Shown one piece after another: positions 1 to 40,003 of a DNA stretch of 64,000 nucleotides. Position 1 is the stretch's first letter. Every line of letters begins with the position of its first letter. The DNA comes from Aggregatilinea lenta. GTDB lineage: Bacteria; Chloroflexota; Anaerolineae; Aggregatilineales; Aggregatilineaceae. Below the pieces are notes generated by a model. That model worked only from the letters and a program-made list of their open reading frames with translations. It made no database searches and was not told where the DNA came from. Both the position numbers and the translations under genes were made by a program. The DNA is taken from assembly GCF_003569045.1 (NCBI RefSeq), contig NZ_BFCB01000001.1, positions 775,189-839,188 of the forward strand, given 5' to 3'.

Positions 1-247
1 GGTAGTGACGCCGGTCGTGATGCACATCCTTGAAGCCACGCGCCACCGCTTGCGGATCGCCCAATTCGGCCAACGCGCGCCGACGTGCTACTTCGGGGGG
101 CACGCCCTGCCGGAGGAGATCGGCTGCCGTGTCTTCGAAATGGGCGGTCAATTCCGCTCGAATAGAGGCTGCCCACCGGGATGGGACGCCGCGAGTCGCT
201 TGGTCGAGCCACCGGTCCAGGTCTGTATGGGGGAGAGAGCCAGTCAC
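1..247 (-). CDS. Permease-prefix-domain membrane protein, 5' part only
   Basis: An open frame starts at GTG 247 and runs off the window edge, giving 82 codons. The GTG overlaps the TGA of the PadR gene (GTGA, 244-247), so the two are translationally coupled. The visible residues read ...RAELTAHFEDTAADLLRQG...ARRRALAELGDPQAVARGF, the helical pattern of the 'permease prefix' domain found at the N-terminus of ABC-type permeases or related membrane proteins encoded next to PadR regulators. The membrane part lies outside the window, so the function cannot be stated. The family is inferred from the motif and the PadR neighbour. Confidence 0.6.
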   Translation of the reverse strand, partial: MTGSLPHTDLDRWLDQATRGVPSRWAASIRAELTAHFEDTAADLLRQGVPPEVARRRALAELGDPQAVARGFKDVHHDRRHY

Positions 248-558
248 GAGGCACCTCCTAACAGCAGGTTGACGGCCTGCGAATAACGCTTCCATTCGTC
301 GGTTTGGCGGGCGAGTTCATGCTGTCCAGCCTCAGTCAAACGGTAGTAGCGGCGCAGCCGCCCGCCGACCGTTTCTTCAAATGCTTCGATCAGCCCACGC
401 CGCTCCAGATCGTGCAGAATGGGATAAAGCGTGCCCTCCGCGACACCCAGCACGCCTTCCGAACGCTGTTTGATGTCCTTGAGGATCGTGTAGCCGTGCC
501 TGGGGCCGGTCGAGAGCACGTGAAGGATCAGAAGCGGGAGATTGCCCTTGATGTTCAT
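244..558 (-). CDS. PadR family transcriptional regulator
   Basis: A 104-residue winged-helix regulator of the short PadR type. It opens MNIKGNLPLLILHVLSTGP, then HGYTILKDI, with the recognition region GTLYPILHDLERRGLIEA and the wing GRLRRYYRLTEAGQ. The length is right for a PadR protein with a short C-terminal dimerisation helix. I chose ATG 558 over an upstream ATG at 630 because homology starts here. PadR proteins usually repress their own operon and respond to ligands or envelope stress. Here the operon partner is the overlapping permease-prefix gene downstream. Confidence 0.88.
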   Translation of the reverse strand: MNIKGNLPLLILHVLSTGPRHGYTILKDIKQRSEGVLGVAEGTLYPILHDLERRGLIEAFEETVGGRLRRYYRLTEAGQHELARQTDEWKRYSQAVNLLLGGAS

Positions 559-709
559 TGTCGATACCTCGGATAACAATGCATCCTGGATAAGAATATC
601 ATACATCGGTGTCCGAGGCATGTCAATCACTGAGCGTGCTTGTAGTGCTCCGGTCGCGTTCGTTCGCGTGCCTCGAACCGGCCCGGATGTAAAAAGCTCT
701 ATACGAAAC

Positions 710-740
710 TTGACAAAGACAGGTGGAATTCGGGTACAAT
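710..740 (+). promoter_or_regulatory. Sigma70-type promoter for a candidate small RNA
   Basis: TTGACA at 710-715 and TACAAT at 735-740 are separated by 19 bp. No ORF on the plus strand starts downstream before a terminator-like hairpin at 790-818, so the promoter appears to drive a short non-coding transcript. Confidence 0.55.
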
Positions 741-746
741 AGAAAT

Positions 747-829
747 GTCGGCAGCCGGGAGGCTGTTTATGACGCGCATCATCCCATAACCCCGTCTGTT
801 CATCATTTGCAGGCGGGGATTTATGTTTT
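747..829 (+). ncRNA. Candidate small RNA (two hairpins, ends in terminator)
   Basis: About 80 nt follow a consensus-like promoter. The first hairpin is GCAGCC/GGCTGT with a GGGA (GNRA) tetraloop at 751-766. The second is a 9-bp stem, 790-798 with 810-818, followed by a U-rich run. I recognise no known RNA family. The polysaccharide gene on the other strand ends at 840, so this RNA would point towards that gene's 3' end. Alternative: a promoter remnant plus a terminator acting on antisense transcription. Confidence 0.4.
790..829 (+). terminator. Rho-independent terminator
   Basis: The arms CCCCGTCTG (790-798) and CAGGCGGGG (810-818) pair over 9 bp with one G-U pair and an 11-nt loop, followed by ATTTATGTTTTA. 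The U-rich side lies on the plus strand. Confidence 0.6.
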
Positions 830-839
830 AAAGGCCCGG

Positions 840-2729
840 TTACGGGGTCGTTTCAGTCGTCGCCAGCCGGTAGACGCGCGCGCCGTCGTTGTCGTAGACG
901 AGCTGCAAATAGGGCGCGGCGCTGACCGGCGTGGACAGGTACGAGGCCGCTTCGGGGATCGGCGCACGCCAGCGCAGCGCGTCGTCCAGGCTGCCGGGAT
1001 TGCCAAATACCTGCGGGACCAGCACGTACTGCACTCGGTAGTCGGCCAGCAGCGCGGCGTTGTCGGGGTTGGCGGGATCGTTCCAGAAGGCGCGCAGGGC
1101 CACCTGTTCCGCCTGGGCCAGCTCGTCATGCTGAAAGAACGGCTGCGGGCGGAAGTAAATCGTGTCGCGCTCGCTGATGACGGGGGCCCAGTCGCCTTCC
1201 TGTGGGCCGGGATGGTTGAGCACGCGCGCGTCTTCGGGCGTGTTGTTACGCAGCCATGCCATCGCGTCCACGTCCGCCTGCGACGAAAACGCACCGTAGA
1301 AATTCACCGTGTCTTTGCTGGCATCCAGCAGCGGATCGAAGTAGACAACCGCCGCCGCCAGCACCCCCGCGCCCAGGGCGATCACCGGAAGCGCCAGCCG
1401 CCCTACGAGGCGATCCATGCGCGCCGCGCCGATCAGCGTGCTCAGGCCCACCAGCGCCGTGCCGCCCAGGATCGTGTAGGGGATGATCGGGCCGTGCCAC
1501 GCGAGGCTGAAGGGGTAATCGTACTTCAGCAGCGGTTCGAGCAGGTCTGGGAAGGCGCGTTCGAGCAGGCCCGTCGTCGAAAACTCCGCAATGCCCACCA
1601 TCCACACCATGCCCAACCACTGCGCGGGACTGCGCTCGCGCAGGCCGATGCCTACGCCGATGGCGGCCAGCGCCACGACGATACCGCCGTGCATGAAGAC
1701 CAGCGTGCGCCAGTGATCCGCATCGACGGCGAACGGCGACTCAATGTCCGCGCCAAGCAGATCGCGGATGCTCAGCAGCCAGGGCGTCACCAGCAGCAGC
1801 GCCAGCGCCGGGATCACGATGGCAATTACACTCCAGCGCGCCAGCGTCGGGCGCGGGTGGGCCAGCACCAGGATCAGCAGCCAGGGCACATAGCCGATCA
1901 TCAGCGCGATGGTCGTGTCCGGCTGGCTGAGCGGGACCGCGGCCAGACAGGTTGCTGCTGCCACCGCACGCAGCCAGCCGCCCTCCTTGAGGAAGCCGAG
2001 CACGAAGGTCAGGAAGGCCAGCGAAAAGTCGAGTGCGAGCAGTGCGGTGTAATGCGAATCGAAGAAGGCGGTGATCATGCCGACGCCGATCACCGCGGCC
2101 AGCATGAACGCGCGCCCGGTGCGGCGGTTTTCCAGCTCGCAGCCGAGATCGTAGGCCAGCCACACGAACACGACCGCCGTCACAGCGCTGAAGGCGAGCT
2201 GCAGCGTCTGGATACCCAGGTCCAGCCGCGCGCTGAGATGGGCGATCAGGCCGGGGTAGGCGGGCGAATAGAGGTATTCGATCTCCGGATGCCAGGGGGC
2301 CAGGGTGGTGTAGTTCTGGCCGTCGCGCAGCGTCAGCGCCAGATAGCCGAAGCCCTGCGCGTCGGTGTCCAGCGGCACGGGCAGCGCCCACACCACGACC
2401 CCGAACGCGGCCACGATCAGGCCCAGGAACGCGACATCGCGCCCGGTTGGCCACAGCCACGCGGTGCGCTCCGGCGCGGCATTGTAATGCACGGCGGTCG
2501 TCAGGGCCGCCCCCGCGATCAGCAGGAACATGCCCAGCCACGCGGCGTCGCCCAGGCGTGGGAGCCATCCGCCGACCGGGGCCAGCAGCCACGTCGAATC
2601 GACCACCAGCGCCAGGAACAGAACCGTGCCCAGCCCGACGCGCGCGCCGCGCGTGGGCAGGATCGAGGCCGCCAGGACGCCGATGCCCAACAGAATCGCG
2701 GCCAGCGCCAGATAGGCCAGGACACTCAT
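840..2729 (-). CDS. Polytopic membrane protein of polysaccharide cluster
   Basis: A 629-residue protein with about a dozen hydrophobic segments from the N-terminus to about residue 470, then a soluble C-terminal domain beginning MAWLRNNTPEDARVLNHPG. That 'W-x-R-x-N-T-P' start is common in the exported domains of large GT-C-like membrane proteins. AGGAG precedes ATG 2729 by a normal distance. It is the last gene of the glycosyltransferase cluster on this strand. It may be a lipid-linked-sugar glycosyltransferase or a polymer-handling protein. I see no clear catalytic DxD or E residue in the first loop, so the enzyme activity is unassigned. Confidence 0.7.
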   Translation of the reverse strand: MSVLAYLALAAILLGIGVLAASILPTRGARVGLGTVLFLALVVDSTWLLAPVGGWLPRLGDAAWLGMFLLIAGAALTTAVHYNAAPERTAWLWPTGRDVAFLGLIVAAFGVVVWALPVPLDTDAQGFGYLALTLRDGQNYTTLAPWHPEIEYLYSPAYPGLIAHLSARLDLGIQTLQLAFSAVTAVVFVWLAYDLGCELENRRTGRAFMLAAVIGVGMITAFFDSHYTALLALDFSLAFLTFVLGFLKEGGWLRAVAAATCLAAVPLSQPDTTIALMIGYVPWLLILVLAHPRPTLARWSVIAIVIPALALLLVTPWLLSIRDLLGADIESPFAVDADHWRTLVFMHGGIVVALAAIGVGIGLRERSPAQWLGMVWMVGIAEFSTTGLLERAFPDLLEPLLKYDYPFSLAWHGPIIPYTILGGTALVGLSTLIGAARMDRLVGRLALPVIALGAGVLAAAVVYFDPLLDASKDTVNFYGAFSSQADVDAMAWLRNNTPEDARVLNHPGPQEGDWAPVISERDTIYFRPQPFFQHDELAQAEQVALRAFWNDPANPDNAALLADYRVQYVLVPQVFGNPGSLDDALRWRAPIPEAASYLSTPVSAAPYLQLVYDNDGARVYRLATTETTP

Positions 2730-2815
2730 GCAAGCTGCTCCTGTGCTTGAGAAGTGGAACCCATTCCGTCCCCTAACCCGCCTGGGGTGGACCGTTCATT
2801 GGCAGAGCATGCCGC

Positions 2816-4003
2816 TTACAGATAGCCGCGAATCACGTCCACGAGCTGCTGCGCACGGTGGCGGTAAGTGTGTTCCTTCAATAACCGTTCGCGCGCCGCC
2901 TGTCCAATGGTACGCCGGGCCTCGTCGTGGCGCAATAACCAGTCGTAGCGCTCGGTGGCTTCTTCTGCGCTGTGCACGACGACCAGTTCTTTTTCCGGCT
3001 CGAACCACGTCTCGATGCCTTCGTACGGATTACACACCATGCAGGCGCCCATCGCCGCCAGCTCGAAGGGCCGCGCGCTGGACGAGGCAAACACCGAGGC
3101 GTGCGCCTTGCGCGTGATGACGAGGTCGAGCTTGCTGCGGCAGGCGTATTCGCGCAGCTTGCTGAACGACAGGTACGGCAGCCGCTCTACGTCGCCCAGC
3201 TCGCCCAGGTTCGTGCCCCGCACGGCGAAGCGCCGCTCCGGCAGGGCGCGTTTGGCGTCGCGCAGCATGGCGTCGATCCACTCCGCGCGGTACTCGCGCC
3301 CGTGGCCGTAGAAGAACACGTCCAGGTCCTGCGTTACGTCCAGCGGTGCGAACAGGTCGGGGTCCGCCGCGTAATAGAGCGCGTGCACGTCGCGCGCGCC
3401 GAGCGCTTTCAGCGCGTCCGATCCGCCCAGGCTGTTTGAGAAGAACGCCGTGTATTCGGACGGATCGGCGTCCTGGTAGATGCGGAAGCCGCTGGCGAAA
3501 CCACGAAAGGTCGGCAGACTGGCGGGCACGTCGCCGTCATAGAAGAACACCGGCTTGTTGTATTTTGTGGTGATGTGCTGCGCGAGGCCGGAAATGTGGT
3601 TGAGCGGCACGGTGATCACCAGCACGGCGTCCACGTCTGGCTGCTGCGCCAGCAGGCGATCCGTGGCGTGAATCCAGCGCGGCGCGACGACCGTGCGCGC
3701 AACGCGGCGCACCGCCCGGTCGGAGAGGCTTTCGTGCTCGACCTGCGTTCCGGCGGCCTGGGTTTGCCGCGTGCCCGTCACACGCCGGACCACATCCCGC
3801 GCGGCCTTGAACGCGTCGCCTTCTCGCCGGGCCGGGTTGGGGGCGGCCTGCCACCAGGGGGTCTCGATCGCCGGACCCTGGTAGGGCGCGGCGATGACCT
3901 CCACGCCGATCTCGTACAACGCCTTGAACAGCTGCCACCATGAGGGCGTAGCGCTGAACGGCTGCGTCAGGTCCAGTGACGACACGATCACGAACAACTT
4001 CAT
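2816..4003 (-). CDS. CgeB-like glycosyltransferase
   Basis: A 395-residue protein that fits the CgeB/YkvP glycosyltransferase-like family. The N-terminal Rossmann half starts MKLFVIVSSLDLTQPF. The C-terminal half contains FYGHGREYRAEWIDAML, a 'SARPFELAAMGACMV' stretch that replaces the E-x7-E region of GT4 enzymes, and the usual closing segment RLLKEHTYRHRAQQLVDVI. AAGGAG lies 6 nt before ATG 4003. It probably transfers a sugar in the cytoplasm during assembly of the surface glycan made by this cluster. Donor and acceptor cannot be read from the sequence. Confidence 0.75.
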   Translation of the reverse strand: MKLFVIVSSLDLTQPFSATPSWWQLFKALYEIGVEVIAAPYQGPAIETPWWQAAPNPARREGDAFKAARDVVRRVTGTRQTQAAGTQVEHESLSDRAVRRVARTVVAPRWIHATDRLLAQQPDVDAVLVITVPLNHISGLAQHITTKYNKPVFFYDGDVPASLPTFRGFASGFRIYQDADPSEYTAFFSNSLGGSDALKALGARDVHALYYAADPDLFAPLDVTQDLDVFFYGHGREYRAEWIDAMLRDAKRALPERRFAVRGTNLGELGDVERLPYLSFSKLREYACRSKLDLVITRKAHASVFASSSARPFELAAMGACMVCNPYEGIETWFEPEKELVVVHSAEEATERYDWLLRHDEARRTIGQAARERLLKEHTYRHRAQQLVDVIRGYL

Positions 4004-32490: not shown

Positions 32491-33837
32491 ATGGCGAACG
32501 AAATTGTAGTGCCCGATTTAGGCGAATCGATTGTCGAGGCGACGGTTGCGGACTGGTTGAAGCAGGAAGGCGATGCCGTCAAGGCGGGCGAGGCGATCGT
32601 CGTGCTGGAAACGGACAAGGTCGATCTGGACGTCGCGGCGACGCACGACGGCGTGCTGTCGCGCATCGACCGGAAGGCGGGCGAGGACGTGAAGATCGGG
32701 GAGGTGCTCGGCCTGATCGACGAGGCGGAGAACGGCCAATCCGCGCCGGAGGCGGCGTCCAAGCCCGATGCGAAAGCCGCAGCGCCGTCCGATGGCAAAG
32801 CCCAGCCGGAGAAAGCAGCCGATCAGCGCGACGAGTCGGAGGCGCAGGAGCGTCACGACGTTGCCGCGTCCAGCACCCCGGACGAGGACGGCGGCGCGGA
32901 GCACGCGACGCCTGTCGCACGGCGGCTGGCCGAAGAACACGGCGTCAAGGTGACGGATGTACCGGCTTCCGGTCCGCGCGGACGCGTCACCAAGGAAGAC
33001 GTGCAGCGCTACCTCGATCAGGGCACCCGGGGCGCACAGGGGACGCGCGAGGCTCCTGCCAAAGCACCCGCGCCTGCTCCAACGCCGAAATCTGCTCCGG
33101 CCCCGACCGCGCCACCGCAGCAGCAGCCGGAGCGCGTCGCGCGTGAAGAACGGGTGCGCATGACGCGCCGCCGCCGCACCATCGCCGAGCGGCTGGTCGA
33201 GGCACAGCACACCGCTGCGATGCTGACCACCTTCAACGAGATCGACATGAGCGCCGTGATGGACATCCGCTCGCGGCGCAAAGAGTCGTTCCAGAAGCAG
33301 CATGACATCAAGCTGGGCTTCATGTCGTTTTTCGTCAAGGCCAGCATCGGCGCGCTGAAGGCGTTCCCACCGCTCAACGCCGAGCTTGACGGCGATGAGA
33401 TCGTGCTGAAGTATTACTATGACATCGGCATGGCGATTGGCGCGCCGGAAGGGCTGGTTGTGCCGGTCCTGCGCGACGCGGATCGCATGTCCTTCGCGGA
33501 AATCGAGCACGAGATCGACGCGTTCGTGGGCAAGGCGAAAGACGGCGCGCTGTCGCTGGACGATCTGCGCGGCGGCACGTTTACCATCACCAACGGCGGC
33601 GTGTTCGGCTCGATGATGAGCACGCCGATCCTCAACCCGCCGCAGGTCGCTATCCTGGGACTGCACAAGATCGAGCAGCGCCCGGTGGTGGTGGACGGCG
33701 AGATCGTGATCCGCCCAATGATGTACGTTGCGGTCAGCTACGATCACCGCATCGTGGACGGGCGTGAGGCGGTGCAGTTCTTGGTGCGCATCAAGGAACT
33801 GATCGAGGACTCAGAGACGCTGCTGCTGGAAGGGTGA
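32491..33837 (+). CDS. sucB: Dihydrolipoyl succinyltransferase (E2)
   Basis: 448 residues. Lipoyl domain 1-77 with the lipoylated Lys43 in [11 protein letters not shown]. An Ala/Pro/Glu linker is followed by the E3-binding domain (about 147-181, [20 protein letters not shown] then [15 protein letters not shown]), a second Pro/Ala linker, and the catalytic domain from about 220, ending in [17 protein letters not shown] with the catalytic His and Asp. It forms the core of the 2-oxoglutarate dehydrogenase complex and takes the succinyl group from SucA. The HRIVDG form and gene order favour succinyl- over acetyl-transfer. Confidence 0.93.
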
Positions 33838-33866
33838 GGATTGCCCGCGCAAGCGTATGAAAAGGC

Positions 33867-33893
33867 GTAGGGGCGTATTACGATACGCCCTAC
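33867..33893. repeat. Family A palindrome (core CGTAT)
   Basis: GTAGGGGCGTAT (33867-33878) and ATACGCCCTAC (33883-33893), one C short of a perfect palindrome. It lies 30 bp after sucB and may terminate it. Confidence 0.75.
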
Positions 33894-33920
33894 CACGATC
33901 GGGGCCTGGAACGAAAAACC

Positions 33921-33943
33921 GGGCGGAGCTTGCTCCGCCCCTG
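33921..33943. repeat. Family A palindrome (core GGAGCTTGCTCC)
   Basis: GGGCGGAGC, TT, GCTCCGCCC, then CTGC: a 9-bp perfect stem sharing the GGGC/GCCCC edges of the family. Confidence 0.65.
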
Positions 33944-33996
33944 CGGATCCCGGTTCCGTATGCGGGCCGGGATGGAGTTTCCCCGAATCGAGCACC

Positions 33997-34038
33997 CACG
34001 ACTGAACTAAGAACGAAGCACTACCAACTATAAACTCC
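33997..34038. repeat. Family C repeat (copy C8)
   Basis: CGACTGAACTAAGAACGAAG then CACTACCAACTATAAACTCC. The 300-bp gap 33838-34137 holds two family A palindromes, this element and a -10 box (34074-34079); I see no gene in it. Confidence 0.5.
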
Positions 34039-34073
34039 TTTATACCACATGGCAGCGCGGGGCTGGGGTGCTT

Positions 34074-34079
34074 TATAAT
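34074..34079 (+). promoter_or_regulatory. -10 box upstream of the B12-sensor operon
   Basis: A perfect TATAAT lies 58 bp upstream of ATG 34138 with no recognisable -35. An activator-dependent or alternative-sigma promoter is possible. Confidence 0.4.
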
Positions 34080-34137
34080 TCGACGTAAGTCCATTTAAAC
34101 CCGTTCCGTCCGCGCGAGACAGACACACATCCAGCCT

Positions 34138-35214
34138 ATGCTTCCAGATTCGTCCGGCGCGCTGCACGCTCGGCTCGCTCAGGCCCTTGACCGGCTTGAA
34201 GCGTCGAGTGCGCTTGTCGTGCAGACTGCCATCACCGACTTCTATGCGATCCACCCCGATCTTCACCGCATGCACGGGTATGAAGGCGTTCGCCGCTGGC
34301 GCGAAGACGCACAGCGCCATCTTCAGGCATTGGTCACGGCGTTGCGCACGCAAACCCCGGTGTTGTTTGGGGGATATGCACGGATCTATATCGCTGAATT
34401 GAACGGGCGCGGCCAGGACCTGGTCGCTTTCGCGCACCTGCTGGAGATCATGGGCCAGGCGATACGCAGCACGCTCGGCGACGAAACATGGAGCATGGTG
34501 CGCGTGCCGTTGGACGCGGCGCTGCGGGAAATTCCGTTACAGGATGGAGATCGCACAGTGCTTTTGCAGGCAGACGATCGTTTAATGCCAACTTATCTCA
34601 GCGCGGTGCTGGCTGGCAACCGGATCGCCGCGCAGGACGCGGTGTTCGATGCGCTGGATCGAGGGGCGACGGTCCGCCAGGTGTATCTCGACGTCTTCCA
34701 GCCCGCGTTGTATACGGTCGGCCAGATGTGGGAAACCGGCCAGTTGTCCGTCGCGCAAGAGCATCTGGCGACCGCGATTACGCAGGCGATCCTCTCCGGC
34801 ATTTACGCGCGCGTACCGCTGGCGACGTCCGGCCTGCGGCGTGCTATCGTCGCCTGCCTCGCCGGGAACTATCACGAGATCGGGCCGCGCATGCTGGCCG
34901 ACTTCTTGCAGATGGCCGGGTACGACACCCGGTTCCTGGGCGCAAACACGCCCACCGACAGCCTGCTGGCGATGATCGACGAGGTGAAACCGGACGTGGT
35001 CGGGCTGGCCTCCACGACGCAGGAACAGGTCGATCAGGTGAAGGACGCCATCGAGCGCATACGGGGCGATTTCACCGCCTACCGCCCCACGATCATGGTT
35101 GGCGGGCTGGCCTTTAACCTTGTGGACGGCCTGTGGCAGCGCGTGGGTGGCGACGTGTGGGGCCAGGACGCCGGGCAGGCGATTGACCACCTCACCGGCT
35201 CGGCGGATTGGTAG
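34138..35214 (+). CDS. Cobalamin-binding sensor with CarH-type W-x9-EH signature
   Basis: 358 residues. Residues 1-140 are helical and unrecognised; there is no MerR-type DNA-binding domain. Residues 145-225 form a B12-binding four-helix cap with MWETGQLSVAQEH: W198, E208 and H209 have the exact W-x9-E-H spacing of the adenosylcobalamin photoreceptor CarH. Residues 233-355 are the Rossmann B12 domain with GNYHEIG (H246 as lower cobalt ligand) and FLGANTPTDSLL. The CarH residue that takes over cobalt binding after illumination (His next to the Trp) is Glu199 here. The kinase gene starts 5 bp after the stop, so it most likely feeds a B12 or light signal into phosphorelay. Domain assignment is firm, photochemistry inferred. 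Confidence 0.82.
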   Translation: MLPDSSGALHARLAQALDRLEASSALVVQTAITDFYAIHPDLHRMHGYEGVRRWREDAQRHLQALVTALRTQTPVLFGGYARIYIAELNGRGQDLVAFAHLLEIMGQAIRSTLGDETWSMVRVPLDAALREIPLQDGDRTVLLQADDRLMPTYLSAVLAGNRIAAQDAVFDALDRGATVRQVYLDVFQPALYTVGQMWETGQLSVAQEHLATAITQAILSGIYARVPLATSGLRRAIVACLAGNYHEIGPRMLADFLQMAGYDTRFLGANTPTDSLLAMIDEVKPDVVGLASTTQEQVDQVKDAIERIRGDFTAYRPTIMVGGLAFNLVDGLWQRVGGDVWGQDAGQAIDHLTGSADW

Positions 35215-35219
35215 CCGTG

Positions 35220-36497
35220 ATGGTGCCTGCATCTCCTCCTTTGCAGAACTGGTATCCCTCTGTGGCGGCGTTCGCCAAAGACGGCATGGCGCTGGTGGTG
35301 GGCGTGTTCGACCTGCCATCGGGCCGCCTGGTGTATAGCAACGCCGGATTGCGTTTTCTGCTGGGCATGGACGAAGGTGACGATCCGCCGCTGGATCGCT
35401 TCGCCGTGCCCGCGTTTGCGCAGTTGCAGGCGTCCGACGTCGAGATGGGCAGGATCTTCGAGGGCTGGCTGACCTTTGGCGGGCCGGGCGTGCCGCACCG
35501 CTCGGTGCGCGGCTTCGTCGAGCGGCGCGGCGACCAGATCCTGGTGCTGGGCGAGCACGACGTCGAGGAATTGGAGCGCATCAACCGCGAGATCACCGCC
35601 CTCAATGGCGAGATCACCAACCTCCAGCGCGAGCTGGCCCTGCGCAAGTCCGCGCTGGAAGCGACCCTGGACGAGCTGCGTGAAACGCAGATGATGCTGG
35701 TTCATGCCTCCAAGATGAACGCCCTGGGCCAGGTGGTCGCGGGGGTGGCGCACGAGATCAACAACCCGGTGTCCTTCGTCAACAGCAACCTCTACAGCCT
35801 GCGCACCGCCGCCAACGACGTCCGCAGCGCTTACACAGAACTCGAAGCCCTGATCGACGCGGAAGGCACGGACGCGCAGCGCGCGCGTATGGTCGAGATC
35901 CGCCAGCAGGCCGATCTCGACTTCCTGTTCCCCGATCTGGACGACTTGCTGGGTGGGTCGATTCAGGGGCTGGCGCGCGTGAAGCGCATCGTCGAGGATC
36001 TGCGCGCCTTTTCGCGTCTGGACGAGGCCGAATTTAAGGAAGTGGATCTGGCCGACAACATCCACAGCACTCTCGCGATTGCCCAGCCGGAGCTGCGCGA
36101 TCGCGTCGCCGTCGAGCTGGACCTGGATGCGCTGCCGCGTATAAAGTGTTATCCTGCGGAACTCAATCAGGTGTTCATGAACCTGATCGTCAACGCGGCC
36201 CAGGCCATCGAGAGGGCCGGCACGCTGCGTATTCGCGGCTGGGATGAAGGCCGCCGGATCGTGCTTCAGTTTGTGGATACGGGCGGCGGCATGACGCCCG
36301 ACGTGATGGAAAAACTGTTTGTCCCGTTCTTTACAACCAAGCCGGTTGGTTCCGGCACAGGGCTGGGGCTGGCGTTAGCCTATAAAATTATTGTGGATCA
36401 TCACCACGGCACGATTACCGCCGATTCAACGCCCGGCCAGGGCAGCACATTTACGATTACCCTCCCGAAGGATCTGAACCATGACCGAGACGCCTGA
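35220..36497 (+). CDS. Sensor histidine kinase
   Basis: 425 residues from ATG 35220. No transmembrane segment. A PAS-like N-terminal domain (about 10-110: [20 protein letters not shown]) is followed by a coiled coil (115-160) and a dimerisation/phosphotransfer box with His178 in [18 protein letters not shown]. The ATPase domain shows N box [16 protein letters not shown]1 [11 protein letters not shown] box FVPFFTTK and G2 [12 protein letters not shown]. It is cytoplasmic, as expected if its input is the B12 sensor just upstream. The end overlaps the next gene by 17 bp. Confidence 0.9.
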
Positions 36498-37710
36498 CCA
36501 AACGCCGCGCGGCCACCTGCTGATCATCGACGACGAGGAGGAGATCCTTAAGGCGCTGAATCGCCAGTTCCGCCGCCAATATACCGTCCACGTGGCGCAC
36601 AGCGCCGACGAGGGTTACCGTCTCATGGCGGAACTGCCCGTGGACGTGATCATCTCCGACCAGCGTATGCCGGGCATGACCGGCGCGGAGTTCTTCAAGA
36701 AGGTCAAAGGTGAGTTTCCCGACGCGATCCGGCTGCTGCTGACCGGCTACGCTGACATCGAGGCCGTGATCGCGGCCATTAACGACGGCAACGTATTCCG
36801 TTACATCACCAAGCCGTGGGACCCCGTGGAGCTGGAGACGATTGTCGCGCAGGCATTCGAGCGCTACGACCTGATCGTGCAGAACCGCGCGTTGATGAGG
36901 GAGTTGCAAGAGGCCAATACCCGCCTGGAACGGCGCGTCACCGAGCGTACGGCGGAGCTTGAAGACGCTAACGAGCGGCTGGTCCAGCTCAACGAGCTAA
37001 AAAATGAATTCATGGGCATCGCCGCGCACGACATGCGCACGCCGCTGACGGTGATCAAGGGCATCGCCAGCATGCTCCTGGTGCGCCAGAACATCCCGCC
37101 GGAGATGCGTGAGGAGTACATGCAGATGATCCTCGACTCCGTGCAGGACATGCTGAATCTGCTCAACGACCTGCTGAGCATCTCGGAGATCGAGTCTGGC
37201 AAGCTGACGCTGCGCCCGCAGGAAGTCGAGCCGGACGCGTACGTCAAGCGCGTCGCGCAGCTTAACCGTCCGCTGGCCGAAAACAAGGATATCCAGATCG
37301 TCACCGATCTCGCGCCCGATCTGCCGCACATGCGCTTCGACCCGGAGCGCGTCCAGCAGGTGTTTAACAACTTGCTCAGCAACGCATTCAAGTTCTCGAA
37401 CCCCCGTACTACGGTGACTATCCGCGCCGTGCAGGGTGATGACGACACAGTGGTGTTTTCCGTGATCGACCAGGGCCAGGGCATCCCGGCGAGCGAGGTC
37501 GACCAGATCTTCGAGGCGTTCCAGCGGTCCAGCACCCGCGCCACCGCCGGGGAATCGAGCACGGGCCTGGGGCTGGCGATCTGCAGACGCATTGTCGAGC
37601 TGGCGGGCGGCAAGATCGCAGTCGAGAGTGAGCTGGGCAAAGGCAGCCGCTTCTACTTCACGCTGCCTTATGCGCCGGAGCAGGTCGGGGAAGCCGCCCC
37701 CGGCGAGTGA
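36481..37710 (+). CDS. Receiver-histidine kinase hybrid
   Basis: 409 residues. A receiver domain comes first (about 11-125): acidic pair D17/D18 in [10 protein letters not shown], phospho-acceptor Asp60 in [17 protein letters not shown], and the Lys of YITKPW. A coiled coil (130-172) leads to a kinase core with His183 in [17 protein letters not shown] box [16 protein letters not shown]1 VIDQGQGIP and G2 STGLGLAI. No DNA-binding output is present. It probably receives phosphate from the upstream kinase and passes it to an unlinked regulator. Starts inside the previous gene. Confidence 0.9.
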
Positions 37711-37836
37711 GTCGCGCCGGTGGGCAGGATGCACAAAGTTCACTGGCGCGCCCGGATCATGCCTGGAAGGATCGCACGAGTTGTCTGCGGGCTTTGTGGA
37801 ATACACCCAAACTTTGACCAATATCCGCCTCATGAC

Positions 37837-37866
37837 TTGACACACCCTGGTCTTGTGCGTTAGAGT
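37837..37866 (+). promoter_or_regulatory. Promoter of the ilv-leu operon
   Basis: Perfect TTGACA (37837-37842), 18-bp spacer, TAGAGT (37861-37866). Transcription should start near 37873, giving a leader of about 460 nt before ilvD that contains two attenuators. Confidence 0.7.
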
Positions 37867-37931
37867 GAACAGCAATCAACCGCAAGTTTGAACGTGATTG
37901 AAACCATTCACCAGAGATTGAACGCAAACCC

Positions 37932-38015
37932 ATGAACCTGCGCAGCCTGGTCGTCCTCCTTATTAGCATTAGCCTCGTCCTTATTGGCGGGGTTTTCGTG
38001 GTTGGGAGGGCCTGA
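37932..38015 (+). CDS. BCAA-rich leader peptide 1
   Basis: 27 residues starting MNLRSLVVLLISISLVLIGG; 15 of 27 are Leu, Val or Ile (6 Leu, 6 Val, 3 Ile). The stop TGA is at 38013-38015, 26 nt before the terminator arm. Segment 1 (37953-37960, Val-Leu-Leu codons) can pair with segment 2 (38004-38011), so a ribosome stalled here for charged Leu/Val/Ile tRNA frees segment 2. The SD is weak. Role: sensing branched-chain amino acid supply, as in the enterobacterial ilv and leu leaders. Confidence 0.82.
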   Translation: MNLRSLVVLLISISLVLIGGVFVVGRA

Positions 38016-38069
38016 GCGCAGGCCGGTCAAGGTAACTTAGGAGCCTCCCAACACACGGGAGGCTCTTTT
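38001..38069 (+). promoter_or_regulatory. Attenuator 1 (antiterminator and terminator)
   Basis: Antiterminator: GTTGGGAGG (38001-38009) with CCTCCCAAC (38044-38052), 9 bp perfect. Terminator: GAGCCTCCC (38041-38049) with GGGAGGCTC (38057-38065), 9 bp perfect, then TTTT. The two are mutually exclusive. Alternative 1:2 pairing: 37953-37960 with 38004-38011, 8 bp including two G-U. An extra hairpin GGCCTG/CAGGCC with an AGCG loop (38009-38024) spans the leader stop codon. Confidence 0.85.
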
Positions 38070-38089
38070 CGTTTAAGGGCAAAACGATC

Positions 38090-38236
38090 ATGGCATTCGG
38101 AGCACCGTTACTCACTCTGTCCCTATTTAACGTCATCGTTATTGGCCTCCTTCTCGCGCTTGGGAAGGAGGAGCAACGGGTTGGAACGGTGCTAGCCCCG
38201 GCGCTGAGCAGGATTTCAGAGCGGCGTCAGGGGTAA
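38090..38236 (+). CDS. BCAA-rich leader peptide 2
   Basis: 48 residues starting MAFGAPLLTLSLFNVIVIGL, then LLAL; 12 of the first 24 residues are Leu, Ile or Val, including the rare codons TTA and CTA. The C-terminal half is ordinary and charged. Segment 1 (38101-38109) covers codons 4-7 up to the first Leu; segment 2 (38176-38193) lies further down the same ORF. AAGGGC upstream is a possible SD. It is a second, independent stalling site behind terminator 1. Confidence 0.75.
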   Translation: MAFGAPLLTLSLFNVIVIGLLLALGKEEQRVGTVLAPALSRISERRQG

Positions 38237-38280
38237 GAGAAACACAGAGGCCGCTCCAACCCGTAGGAGCGGCCTTTTTT
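38176..38280 (+). promoter_or_regulatory. Attenuator 2 (antiterminator and terminator)
   Basis: 1:2 pairing: AGCACCGTT (38101-38109) with AACGGTGCT (38185-38193), 9 bp perfect. 2:3 antiterminator: ACGGGTTGGAACGG (38176-38189) with CCGCTCCAACCCGT (38251-38264), 13 of 14. 3:4 terminator: GGCCGCTCC (38249-38257) with GGAGCGGCC (38266-38274), 9 bp perfect, then TTTTTT (38275-38280). Every arm is complementary to the next, the full classical attenuator logic. Confidence 0.85.
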
Positions 38281-38335
38281 GTTCGACAGCTATTCAGCTA
38301 GTAAGCGCAGAAAACTTCTAAGGACAGGCAGCATT

Positions 38336-40003
38336 ATGCGTTCAGACCGGATCAAAAAAGGCTTTGAGAGAGCGCCCCATCGCAGTCTGCTCAAGGCGAC
38401 CGGCGTCACCGACGCCGACATGCGCAAACCATTTATCGCCATCGTGAACTCGTACGTGGACATCATCCCCGGCCACGTGCACCTGCAGGAGTTCGGGCGC
38501 GTCGTCAAGGAAGCTGTACGCGAGGCGGGCGGTGTGCCGTTCGAGTTCAACACGATCGGCGTGGATGACGGCATCGCGATGGGCCACATCGGCATGAACT
38601 TCTCCTTGCCCAGCCGCGAGCTGATCGCAGACAGCGTCGAGACGATGATCGCGGCGCACGCCTTCGACGGCATGATTTGCATCCCCAACTGCGACAAGAT
38701 TGTGCCCGGTATGCTGATGGGCGCGATGCGCGTGGACATCCCGACCATTTTCGTCAGCGGCGGCCCGATGGCCGCAGGCAAGACGCCCGATGGCCGCACC
38801 ATCGACCTGATCAGCGTGTTCGAGGGCGTGGGAGCCTTCAGCGCGGGCAAGATCGACGAGGCTGAGCTGAAGATGCTGGAAGACTTCGGCTGTCCCTCGT
38901 GCGGCTCCTGTTCGGGCATGTTCACCGCGAACTCGATGAACTGCCTGATGGAGGCGCTGGGGCTGGCGCTGCCTTACAACGGAAGTGCGCTGGCCCAGTC
39001 CCCCGAACGCATCGCTCTGGCACAAGAAGCGGCGCGCCGGATCATGGTCCTGGTTGACGAGGACGTGACGGCGCGCCGTATCGTTACAGCGGAAGCCATC
39101 GACGATGCCTTCGCGCTCGACATGGCGATGGGGGGCAGCACCAACACCGTGCTGCATACCCTGGCGCTGGCCTACGAGGCGGGGGTCGAGTATCCGCTGG
39201 AACGCATCAACTCGGTTGCGGCGAAGGTTCCGCACATCTGCAAGGTCAGCCCGGCGTCCCACTGGCACATGGAAGACGTGCATCGCGCAGGTGGCGTCCC
39301 GGCCATCCTCAACGAAGTCGCCACACACTCGGACGTGCTGCACCTCGACCGCCCCACCGTCACCGGTAAGACCCTGGGCGAAAACATCAAAGATGCCGAG
39401 GTGACCGATTACGAAGTCATTCGCCACGCCGAAGATCCCTACAGCGAGCGCGGTGGCCTGGCGGTCCTGTTCGGCAGTCTGGCCCCCGAAGGCGCGGTGA
39501 TCAAGATCGGCGCGATCAGCGAAGCGATGCGCCACCACTGCGGCCCGGCGCACGTGTACGAGAGCGAAGAAGACGCCTCGCGCGGCATTCTGAACGGCGA
39601 AGTCCAGCCGGGCGAAGTGGTCGTCATCCGTTACGAGGGTCCGCGCGGCGGTCCGGGGATGCAGGAAATGCTCGGCCCGACGGCGCAGATTCAGGGGCGC
39701 GGCCTGGGCGACAGCGTCGCGCTGATCACCGACGGGCGTTTCTCCGGCGGCAGTCGCGGCGTCTCGATTGGGCACGTCAGCCCCGAAGCGGCGGCGCGCG
39801 GCCCGCTGGCCGCCGTGCAGGGCGGCGACCTGATCGACATCGACCTCGACGCGCGGCGGCTCGACCTGCTGGTGGAGCCGGACGAAGTCGAGCGGCGTCT
39901 GGCGGCGCTGCCGCCCTTTGAAACCGACATTCCCAGCCGCTGGCTGCGCCGTTACGCACGGCTGGTCAGCAGCGCCAGCACCGGGGCCGTGTTCCTGGAC
40001 TAG
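38336..40003 (+). CDS. ilvD: Dihydroxy-acid dehydratase
   Basis: 555 residues from ATG 38336; the frame is open upstream into terminator 2 but homology starts at [20 protein letters not shown]. Fe-S ligands lie in [18 protein letters not shown] and [18 protein letters not shown], and the C-terminal [15 protein letters not shown] is conserved. It dehydrates 2,3-dihydroxy-isovalerate and dihydroxy-methylvalerate to the 2-oxo acids, the last step before transamination in Val/Ile synthesis. First gene of the operon, directly under the two attenuators. Confidence 0.95.

Follow-up and report, generated by a model that had tools for sequence, protein, structure and literature searches.

In a 64,000-nucleotide stretch of the Aggregatilinea lenta genome (contig NZ_BFCB01000001.1, positions 775,189 to 839,188 of the forward strand; hereafter the window), three adjoining genes at positions 34138-37710 encode a cobalamin (B12) sensor, a histidine kinase and a receiver-kinase hybrid. 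We conclude that these genes probably form a two-component system of the photocobilin type, in which a B12 photosensor acts in trans. The sensor is of the photocobilin/photoglobin type, with the globin first and the B12 domain second, and it most likely senses light through B12 alone and passes the signal in trans to a kinase relay. A first-pass annotation, made from the letters of the DNA, had called the sensor CarH-like and proposed that it controls a phosphorelay. The adenosylcobalamin (AdoCbl)-photoreceptor type of the B12 domain stood, but photocobilins proved nearer by sequence and residues 1-133 are predicted to form a globin. The control of a phosphorelay found backing in the conserved gene order with kinases, whereas light control of the kinase itself is something we can only propose.

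The locus comprises the following features:

34138-35214, + strand: sensor gene (gene 1), an open reading frame (ORF) of 358 amino acids, from ORF calling
34138-34536, + strand: sensor residues 1-133, predicted phycobiliprotein-like globin of the photoglobin type, from the AlphaFold2 model, VIA-align and the family profile
34594-35172, + strand: sensor residues 153-345, B12 domain of the AdoCbl-photoreceptor type (helical bundle plus Rossmann fold; W198, E208/H209, lower-ligand H246), from Pfam, VIA-align and the signature
35208, 35217 or 35220 (possible starts) to 36497, + strand: gene 2, from ORF calling
35220-35597, + strand: gene 2 N-terminus, putative PAS-like sensor domain, from AlphaFold2 topology at moderate confidence and structure alignments with a large root-mean-square deviation (rmsd), with no Pfam domain
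35598-35700, + strand: gene 2 coiled coil with motif, from the AlphaFold2 model and motif comparison
35701-36497, + strand: gene 2 kinase core, HATPase_c, phospho-acceptor His in AHEINNP, from Pfam and a position check
36481-37710, + strand: gene 3, from ORF calling
36481-36870, + strand: gene 3 receiver domain, phospho-acceptor Asp60 (SDQRMP), Pfam Response_reg 1.6e-20
36961-37710, + strand: gene 3 kinase core, His183 (AAHDMRTP), from Pfam and a maximum-likelihood tree

The gene calls reproduced the spacing described earlier. The TAG stop of gene 1 ends at 35214 and the ATG of gene 2 lies at 35220, which leaves a gap of 5 base pairs (bp), with GTG 35217 and TTG 35208 as alternative starts; gene 3 starts at 36481 and overlaps the end of gene 2 (36497) by 17 bp. 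According to Pfam, gene 2 is a two-component histidine kinase, with HisKA and its phospho-acceptor His (residue 179, counted from GTG 35217) and HATPase_c. Gene 3 is a receiver-histidine kinase hybrid, as first described, with REC and its acceptor Asp, HisKA and HATPase_c.

For the B12 half of the sensor, Pfam (E up to 1) found B12-binding_2 at residues 153-220 (3.6e-16) and B12-binding at 235-345 (1.2e-16) and no helix-turn-helix (HTH), in agreement with the claim that a DNA-binding domain is missing. The W-x9-E-H spacing of W198, E208 and H209 was correct residue by residue, as was the position of H246, the plausible lower ligand, and G195, G243, G268 and P272 also stand where expected. The window sensor carries GxxW, EH, GxxH and GxxxP, the signature proposed for light-responsive B12 domains in passages of PMC11796333, where exemplar proteins carrying the complete signature were confirmed to be light-responsive. 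G195, W198, E208, H209, H246 and G268 are identical in all 24 aligned sensors of the family (24 of the 27 with fetched flanks, leaving out L084, L088 and L105), P272 is kept in 23 of them and G243 in 21. Seven proteins of the genome match PF02310, and only the window sensor combines the W with the E-H: L002, L003 and L004 keep the H246 equivalent, but Phe replaces the Trp in them and the E-H is missing, and L001, L006 and L007 aligned weakly or partly. The same pocket residues are also found in MerR/CarH-like proteins of the class.

In the PDB sequence search, the best matches were the photocobilins 8j2w/8j2x (E 2.1e-24) and 8j2y (1.7e-19), followed by CtMerR 8jbs (7e-18) and the CarH entries (5.6e-9 to 1.1e-8). 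Structure prediction against CarH had been suggested by the first-pass annotation. The AlphaFold2 model, built from an 8-row alignment (predicted local distance difference test, pLDDT, 81.8; predicted template modelling score, pTM, 0.64), does align with CarH in VIA-align (Z 20.1), but residues 145-356 align better with photocobilin 8j2w (Z 26.4, 1.9 Å over 206 residues). We rejected a CarH minus its HTH as the whole answer, given the predicted globin in the N-terminal third and the nearer photocobilins. A corrinoid methyltransferase protein was rejected as well: corrinoid proteins score high by fold, but L002-L004, which are of the enzyme kind, have Phe for Trp and lack E-H. The fold alone does not single out photoreceptors, and the signature residues are what separate them; the fold searches return best chains only and do not exclude other folds.

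Glu199 takes the place of the CarH His, as was noticed at the outset, and the 24 aligned sensors have Gln (10), Glu (9), Ala (3) or His (2) there. Because it is Glu here and varies within the family, the photocycle is, judging from the sequence, unlikely to end in the bis-His state of CarH, which fits the earlier expectation that the photocycle would differ. Passages of PMC11796333 name further light-responsive proteins without the CarH His, with Gln in SasPcob, Tyr in AbDPcob and Arg in CtMerR.

Kinase activity could also be set by AdoCbl versus other cobalamin occupancy and not by light, which would make the protein a sensor of B12 status. Binding of AdoCbl by these residues does not require light to be the natural signal, the genome encodes an adenosyltransferase (PF01923, E 2.9e-60), and heme oxygenase, PHY and a type-II reaction centre were not found in it. 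However, it is for light-responsive domains that the complete W/EH/H signature was proposed, with exemplars confirmed (passages of PMC11796333), and passages of PMC10979010 describe a photocobilin-cyclase whose activity was raised by light and not by a swap to methyl-, hydroxo- or cyanocobalamin. We regard B12-status sensing as rather unlikely.

Residues 1-133 of the sensor make up, in the predicted structure, a distinct phycobiliprotein-like globin domain that was absent from the first-pass annotation. Pfam Phycobilisome gave no match in the window sensor (P0001) alone; it matched four of the eight members of alignment A1 (best 3.1e-7), which joins P0001 with the seven relatives that were full-length among the matches listed for 298 same-class genomes. 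The N-terminal family profile picks up sequences of allophycocyanin (3.7e-5) and of photocobilin (2.2e-4), and a profile built without the window protein finds the sensor N-terminus at E 9.4e-10 (search space 1000), against 6.5 for the best of 200 shuffles. VIA-align places residues 1-133 of the model on allophycocyanin 7sc7 (Z 17.4, 3.0 Å over 133) and residues 9-136 on smURFP-biliverdin 6fzn (Z 17.0, 1.9 Å over 128). Family profile and predicted fold together indicate a globin in the same chain as the B12 domain, as in photocobilins.

A true dual-chromophore photocobilin would go further: biliverdin bound by the globin would add red light to the range sensed. The closeness of the fold to allophycocyanin and biliverdin-bound smURFP speaks for it, and so does D57, to which SasPcob Asp270 maps and which HMMER aligned with the Asp of the phycobiliprotein R-D; 11 of the 18 globin-bearing relatives, among them the window sensor, have this Asp. 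The SasPcob numbering was mapped in this analysis (chain index + 6 = paper number) and checked on His108 and Trp61. On the other hand, SasPcob Trp296 maps to Ile83 in the window sensor, where the alignment is weak, and to Gly and Ala in two aligned members of its own family (weakly aligned too), whereas it is Trp in the other 15 of the 18.

The bilin supply points in the same direction. A search of 25 sensor-carrying genomes, several of them incomplete (down to 80%), found no heme oxygenase (PF01126) in 21, the window genome included; it is present in G640, G352, G514 and G308, all of one other family (f71). PHY was found in two of 16 genomes (G621 and G640) and the type-II reaction centre PF00124 in three of 22 (G621, G640 and G352), all of them f71 and neither domain in the window genome. 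A missing PF01126 match is not proof that bilin is absent, because G621 carries PHY and yet has no such match; the bilin may also be taken up from the surroundings or be made by an enzyme of another family, for which no search was made. G662 and G711 have the B12 domain without a fused globin, and in G662, whose B12 half is 63% identical, no globin was seen in the 15 kb fetched. We favour a B12-only sensor in the window lineage because Ile83 replaces the Trp, because heme oxygenase, PHY and reaction centre were not found, and because G662 has no fused globin. A second, bilin-based sense seems improbable here.

Beside these results, both mapped pocket residues are kept in ten sensors (G274, G285, G219, G031, G239, G176, G117, G595, G356 and G566) in whose genomes canonical heme oxygenase was not found. 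L017 (2169-2585) and L018 (2177-2599) show what looks like a split version of the sensor, in which a separate globin-like protein comes after a B12-only sensor and is followed by a receiver-containing gene. The small protein of L018 matches Phycobilisome at E 2.3e-4 (21.6 bits, cut-off 22.2), that of L017 weakly (0.055), and the other three of the five small standalone proteins beside B12-only sensors gave no Phycobilisome match. Passages of PMC10151467 report related globins that bind bilins and mention clusters of a B12-domain protein with a globin.

The second line of evidence for the two-component system is the gene that follows the sensor. We compared 27 family sensors in 25 genomes with their flanks, window locus included. 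Of 33 listed sensor matches (own included), 13 had flanks fetched besides our own and the other 19 lie outside the partner count; the seven full-length relatives of alignment A1 also had their flanks fetched, all six non-own matches of the same-family search were fetched, and the 22 partial matches (L017-L038) were used for their architecture alone. An adjoining downstream gene, the presumed partner, is present in 24 of the 27. Its start lies anywhere from 47 bp ahead of the sensor stop to 51 bp beyond it, and these pairings span several families of the phylum. Fourteen of the 24 partners carry a HisKA-type kinase (by BLAST similarity to the window kinases or by eye) and one (G356) is HisKA_2-like by eye; four carry GGDEF, recognised by Pfam in G595 and by eye in G308, G352 and G514. 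Two consist of a coil with a short Cys-rich tail (G363 and G607), two of a PAS-like domain and coil only (G621 and G640), and that of G534 was seen only in part. In a contig scan beyond the phylum, there was a single distant match (25%).

That the genes are mere neighbours and the sensor serves another target is highly unlikely: three of the 27 sensors lack an adjoining partner and kinases are abundant in the genome (83 matches to gene 3, itself included), but 24 of 27 are paired, overlapping or within 51 bp, across several families, and the three-gene order is kept in G670 amid other surroundings.

Some loci depart from the common layout. Outside the 27, L019 has a kinase after a gap of 183 bp; read by eye over 1-3534, it holds an upstream receiver gene similar to the gene 3 REC, a B12-only sensor and a downstream kinase similar to the gene 2 core, that is, the same modules in another order. 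In L078 (6733-7104) and L080 (7794-8123), the partner genes encode no more than a coil followed by a short tail that bears CxxC motifs.

The three-gene order, which the first-pass annotation had suggested looking for elsewhere, recurs in one genome of the same family, G670 (identity 57% for the sensor, 62% for the kinase, 82% for REC and 63% for the core), where gene 3 is cut by the contig end and the neighbours differ from those of the window. G659, G660 and G662 each have a single kinase in which an N-terminus resembling that of gene 2 (44-48%) is combined with a core resembling that of gene 3 (57-60%). In a maximum-likelihood tree of 50 kinase cores, with window-genome paralogues included, the gene 3 core falls in a 5-row clade with G670, G659, G660 and G662 (100/98). 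This clade lies inside one of 13 rows (97/96), whose members are the two gene 3 kinases (window and G670), ten kinases that are partners at other loci, and the paralogue L110. Most simply, the partner N-terminus and coil would have stayed in gene 2 while its kinase core was exchanged for another, and gene 3 would be the old core with REC placed in front.

The putative PAS-like N-terminus of gene 2 and the coil are together probably the partner interface. The AlphaFold2 model (pLDDT 74, pTM 0.41) shows a PAS-like order of strands and helices before a long coil, and the full-length alignments include the LOV/PAS-coil-kinase structures 4gcz, 8a6x and 4i5s, with large rmsd. Sequence searches of this N-terminus did not confirm PAS and found no Pfam domain. 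The coil motif occurs in 12 of 17 kinase rows and in none of 34 window-genome kinases, with a pattern that was written after seeing the partners.

Several observations weigh against a photosensory system of this kind. Neither a bacteriophytochrome nor a reaction centre was found in the window genome, and the sensor is patchy, being present in five of the 18 same-family genomes listed (E 1e-25). In VIA-align, CarH (Z 20.1) is outscored by the corrinoid protein 3ezx (22.8) and by methionine synthase 1bmt (21.9), and Foldseek puts CtMerR 8jbs first and photocobilin 8j2w at rank 18. An adjoining partner is missing for three sensors: the one of G789, where a small ORF intervenes and the kinase lies 505 bp away, and the second ones of G352 and G640; the B12-only sensors of L017 and L018 are followed by the globin-like gene instead. 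As to the kinases, gene 2, its G670 counterpart, G239 and G285 (four of 17 kinase rows) were below the threshold for the tree, the G566 kinase lies outside the 13-row clade, and hhalign did not establish homology between the gene 2 N-terminus and the partner N-termini of other families (probability 7.5%).

We infer the light response, the AdoCbl binding, the contact between sensor and kinase, the phosphate flow and the direction of every effect, and the B12-only photosensor would work as follows. In the dark, AdoCbl would be held by H246, W198 and E208/H209, with the sensor as a head-to-tail dimer. Green light would cleave the Co-C bond and release adenosine, the E208/H209 helix would move and the dimer interface would change, and the end state would be a cobalamin ligated by water or hydroxide and not bis-His. 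An altered contact of the sensor with the PAS-like/coil part of the gene 2 kinase would then alter kinase activity; gene 2 would exchange phosphate with the gene 3 receiver domain and so set the activity of the gene 3 core, which may act toward a response regulator encoded elsewhere. In the window lineage, the globin is probably without bilin and would serve as a scaffold. Since the sign of the published photocobilin effects is not fixed, we propose the contact with the adjacent kinase without a direction. According to passages of PMC10979010, AdoCbl-only SasPcob activated a cyclase in the dark and seemed inhibitory when illuminated, the reverse of AbPcob, and full-length AbDPcob remained a dimer.

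Among known systems, the photocobilins SasPcob and AbDPcob (PDB 8J2W, 8J2X, 8J2Y; passages of PMC10979010) resemble the window sensor in their AdoCbl domain with W/EH/His, their phycobiliprotein-like globin and the absent equivalent of CarH His132. The same source reports that cyclase activity is light-switched in cis and that standalone SasPcob can act in trans on an enzyme, a diguanylate cyclase, which is the mode of action we propose. The window sensor differs in having the globin first, the B12 domain second and the bilin-contacting Trp replaced; its locus differs in the conserved downstream partner with varying output, and a canonical heme oxygenase was not found in its genome. The globin-first order alone is not new, because the AdoCbl domain of photocobilins can be N-terminal or C-terminal (PMC10979010, in part). 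The varying partner outputs and the relation of gene 2 to gene 3 are described in this analysis. For the photoglobin family, Schneider et al. in 2022 reportedly proposed pairs of globin and B12 domain, like that of the window sensor, as light-sensing signal-transduction modules, and are said to have discussed such gene neighbourhoods. No photocobilin or photoglobin operon with a kinase appeared in the titles or abstract openings of the literature searched.

CarH/LitR (PDB 5C8D) have the B12 fold and the AdoCbl contact residues in common with the window sensor, which has their Trp/Glu/His pocket with a lower-ligand His. Unlike them, it lacks the MerR HTH (61.1 bits against the cut-off of 400 for NCBIfam CarH NF052513), has Glu199 in place of TtCarH His132 and is followed by kinases instead of an operator. 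AerR and AppA are regulators without a DNA-binding domain. Their SCHIC domains (PDB 7TE2 and 4HH3) have a fold like the B12 half of the sensor (Z 19.8 and 19.4) but share 14-15% identity with it, and they bind a transcription factor and not a kinase, as given for AppA-PpsR by the PDB title and for AerR-CrtJ in passages of PMC9144470.

Downstream of the locus, the window holds two short Leu/Val/Ile-rich ORFs within 37837-38278, one at 37932-38015 (MNLRSLVVLLISISLVLIGGVFVVGRA) and one from 38090 (MAFGAPLLTLSLFNVIVIGLLLALG...), each followed by a terminator-like hairpin (38039-38067 and 38246-38277). The next ORF, at 38279, is one that we take to be ilvD from its sequence. The arrangement resembles a tandem leader-peptide attenuation of branched-chain amino acid genes; a search of 33800-38400 against Rfam (E up to 1) gave no match for this region or for the rest of that interval.

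Finally, the locus may, as we tentatively suggest, belong to a wider, modular way of trans-acting light signalling. A globin-B12 or B12-only sensor would be combined with a separate PAS-like/coiled-coil adaptor whose output is a kinase, GGDEF or none, depending on the lineage; in the window lineage, a domain swap would have split the adaptor into a two-kinase relay and the bilin would have been dispensed with. Passages of PMC10979010 call the function of standalone photocobilins less clear. If true, the modular system would give them a natural target, and a directly testable one, in the conserved downstream partner with varying output. It could also provide a green-light kinase tool, and it would be a case in which, of the two arms of a two-chromophore sensor, the one using B12 may have persisted after the bilin one was lost.

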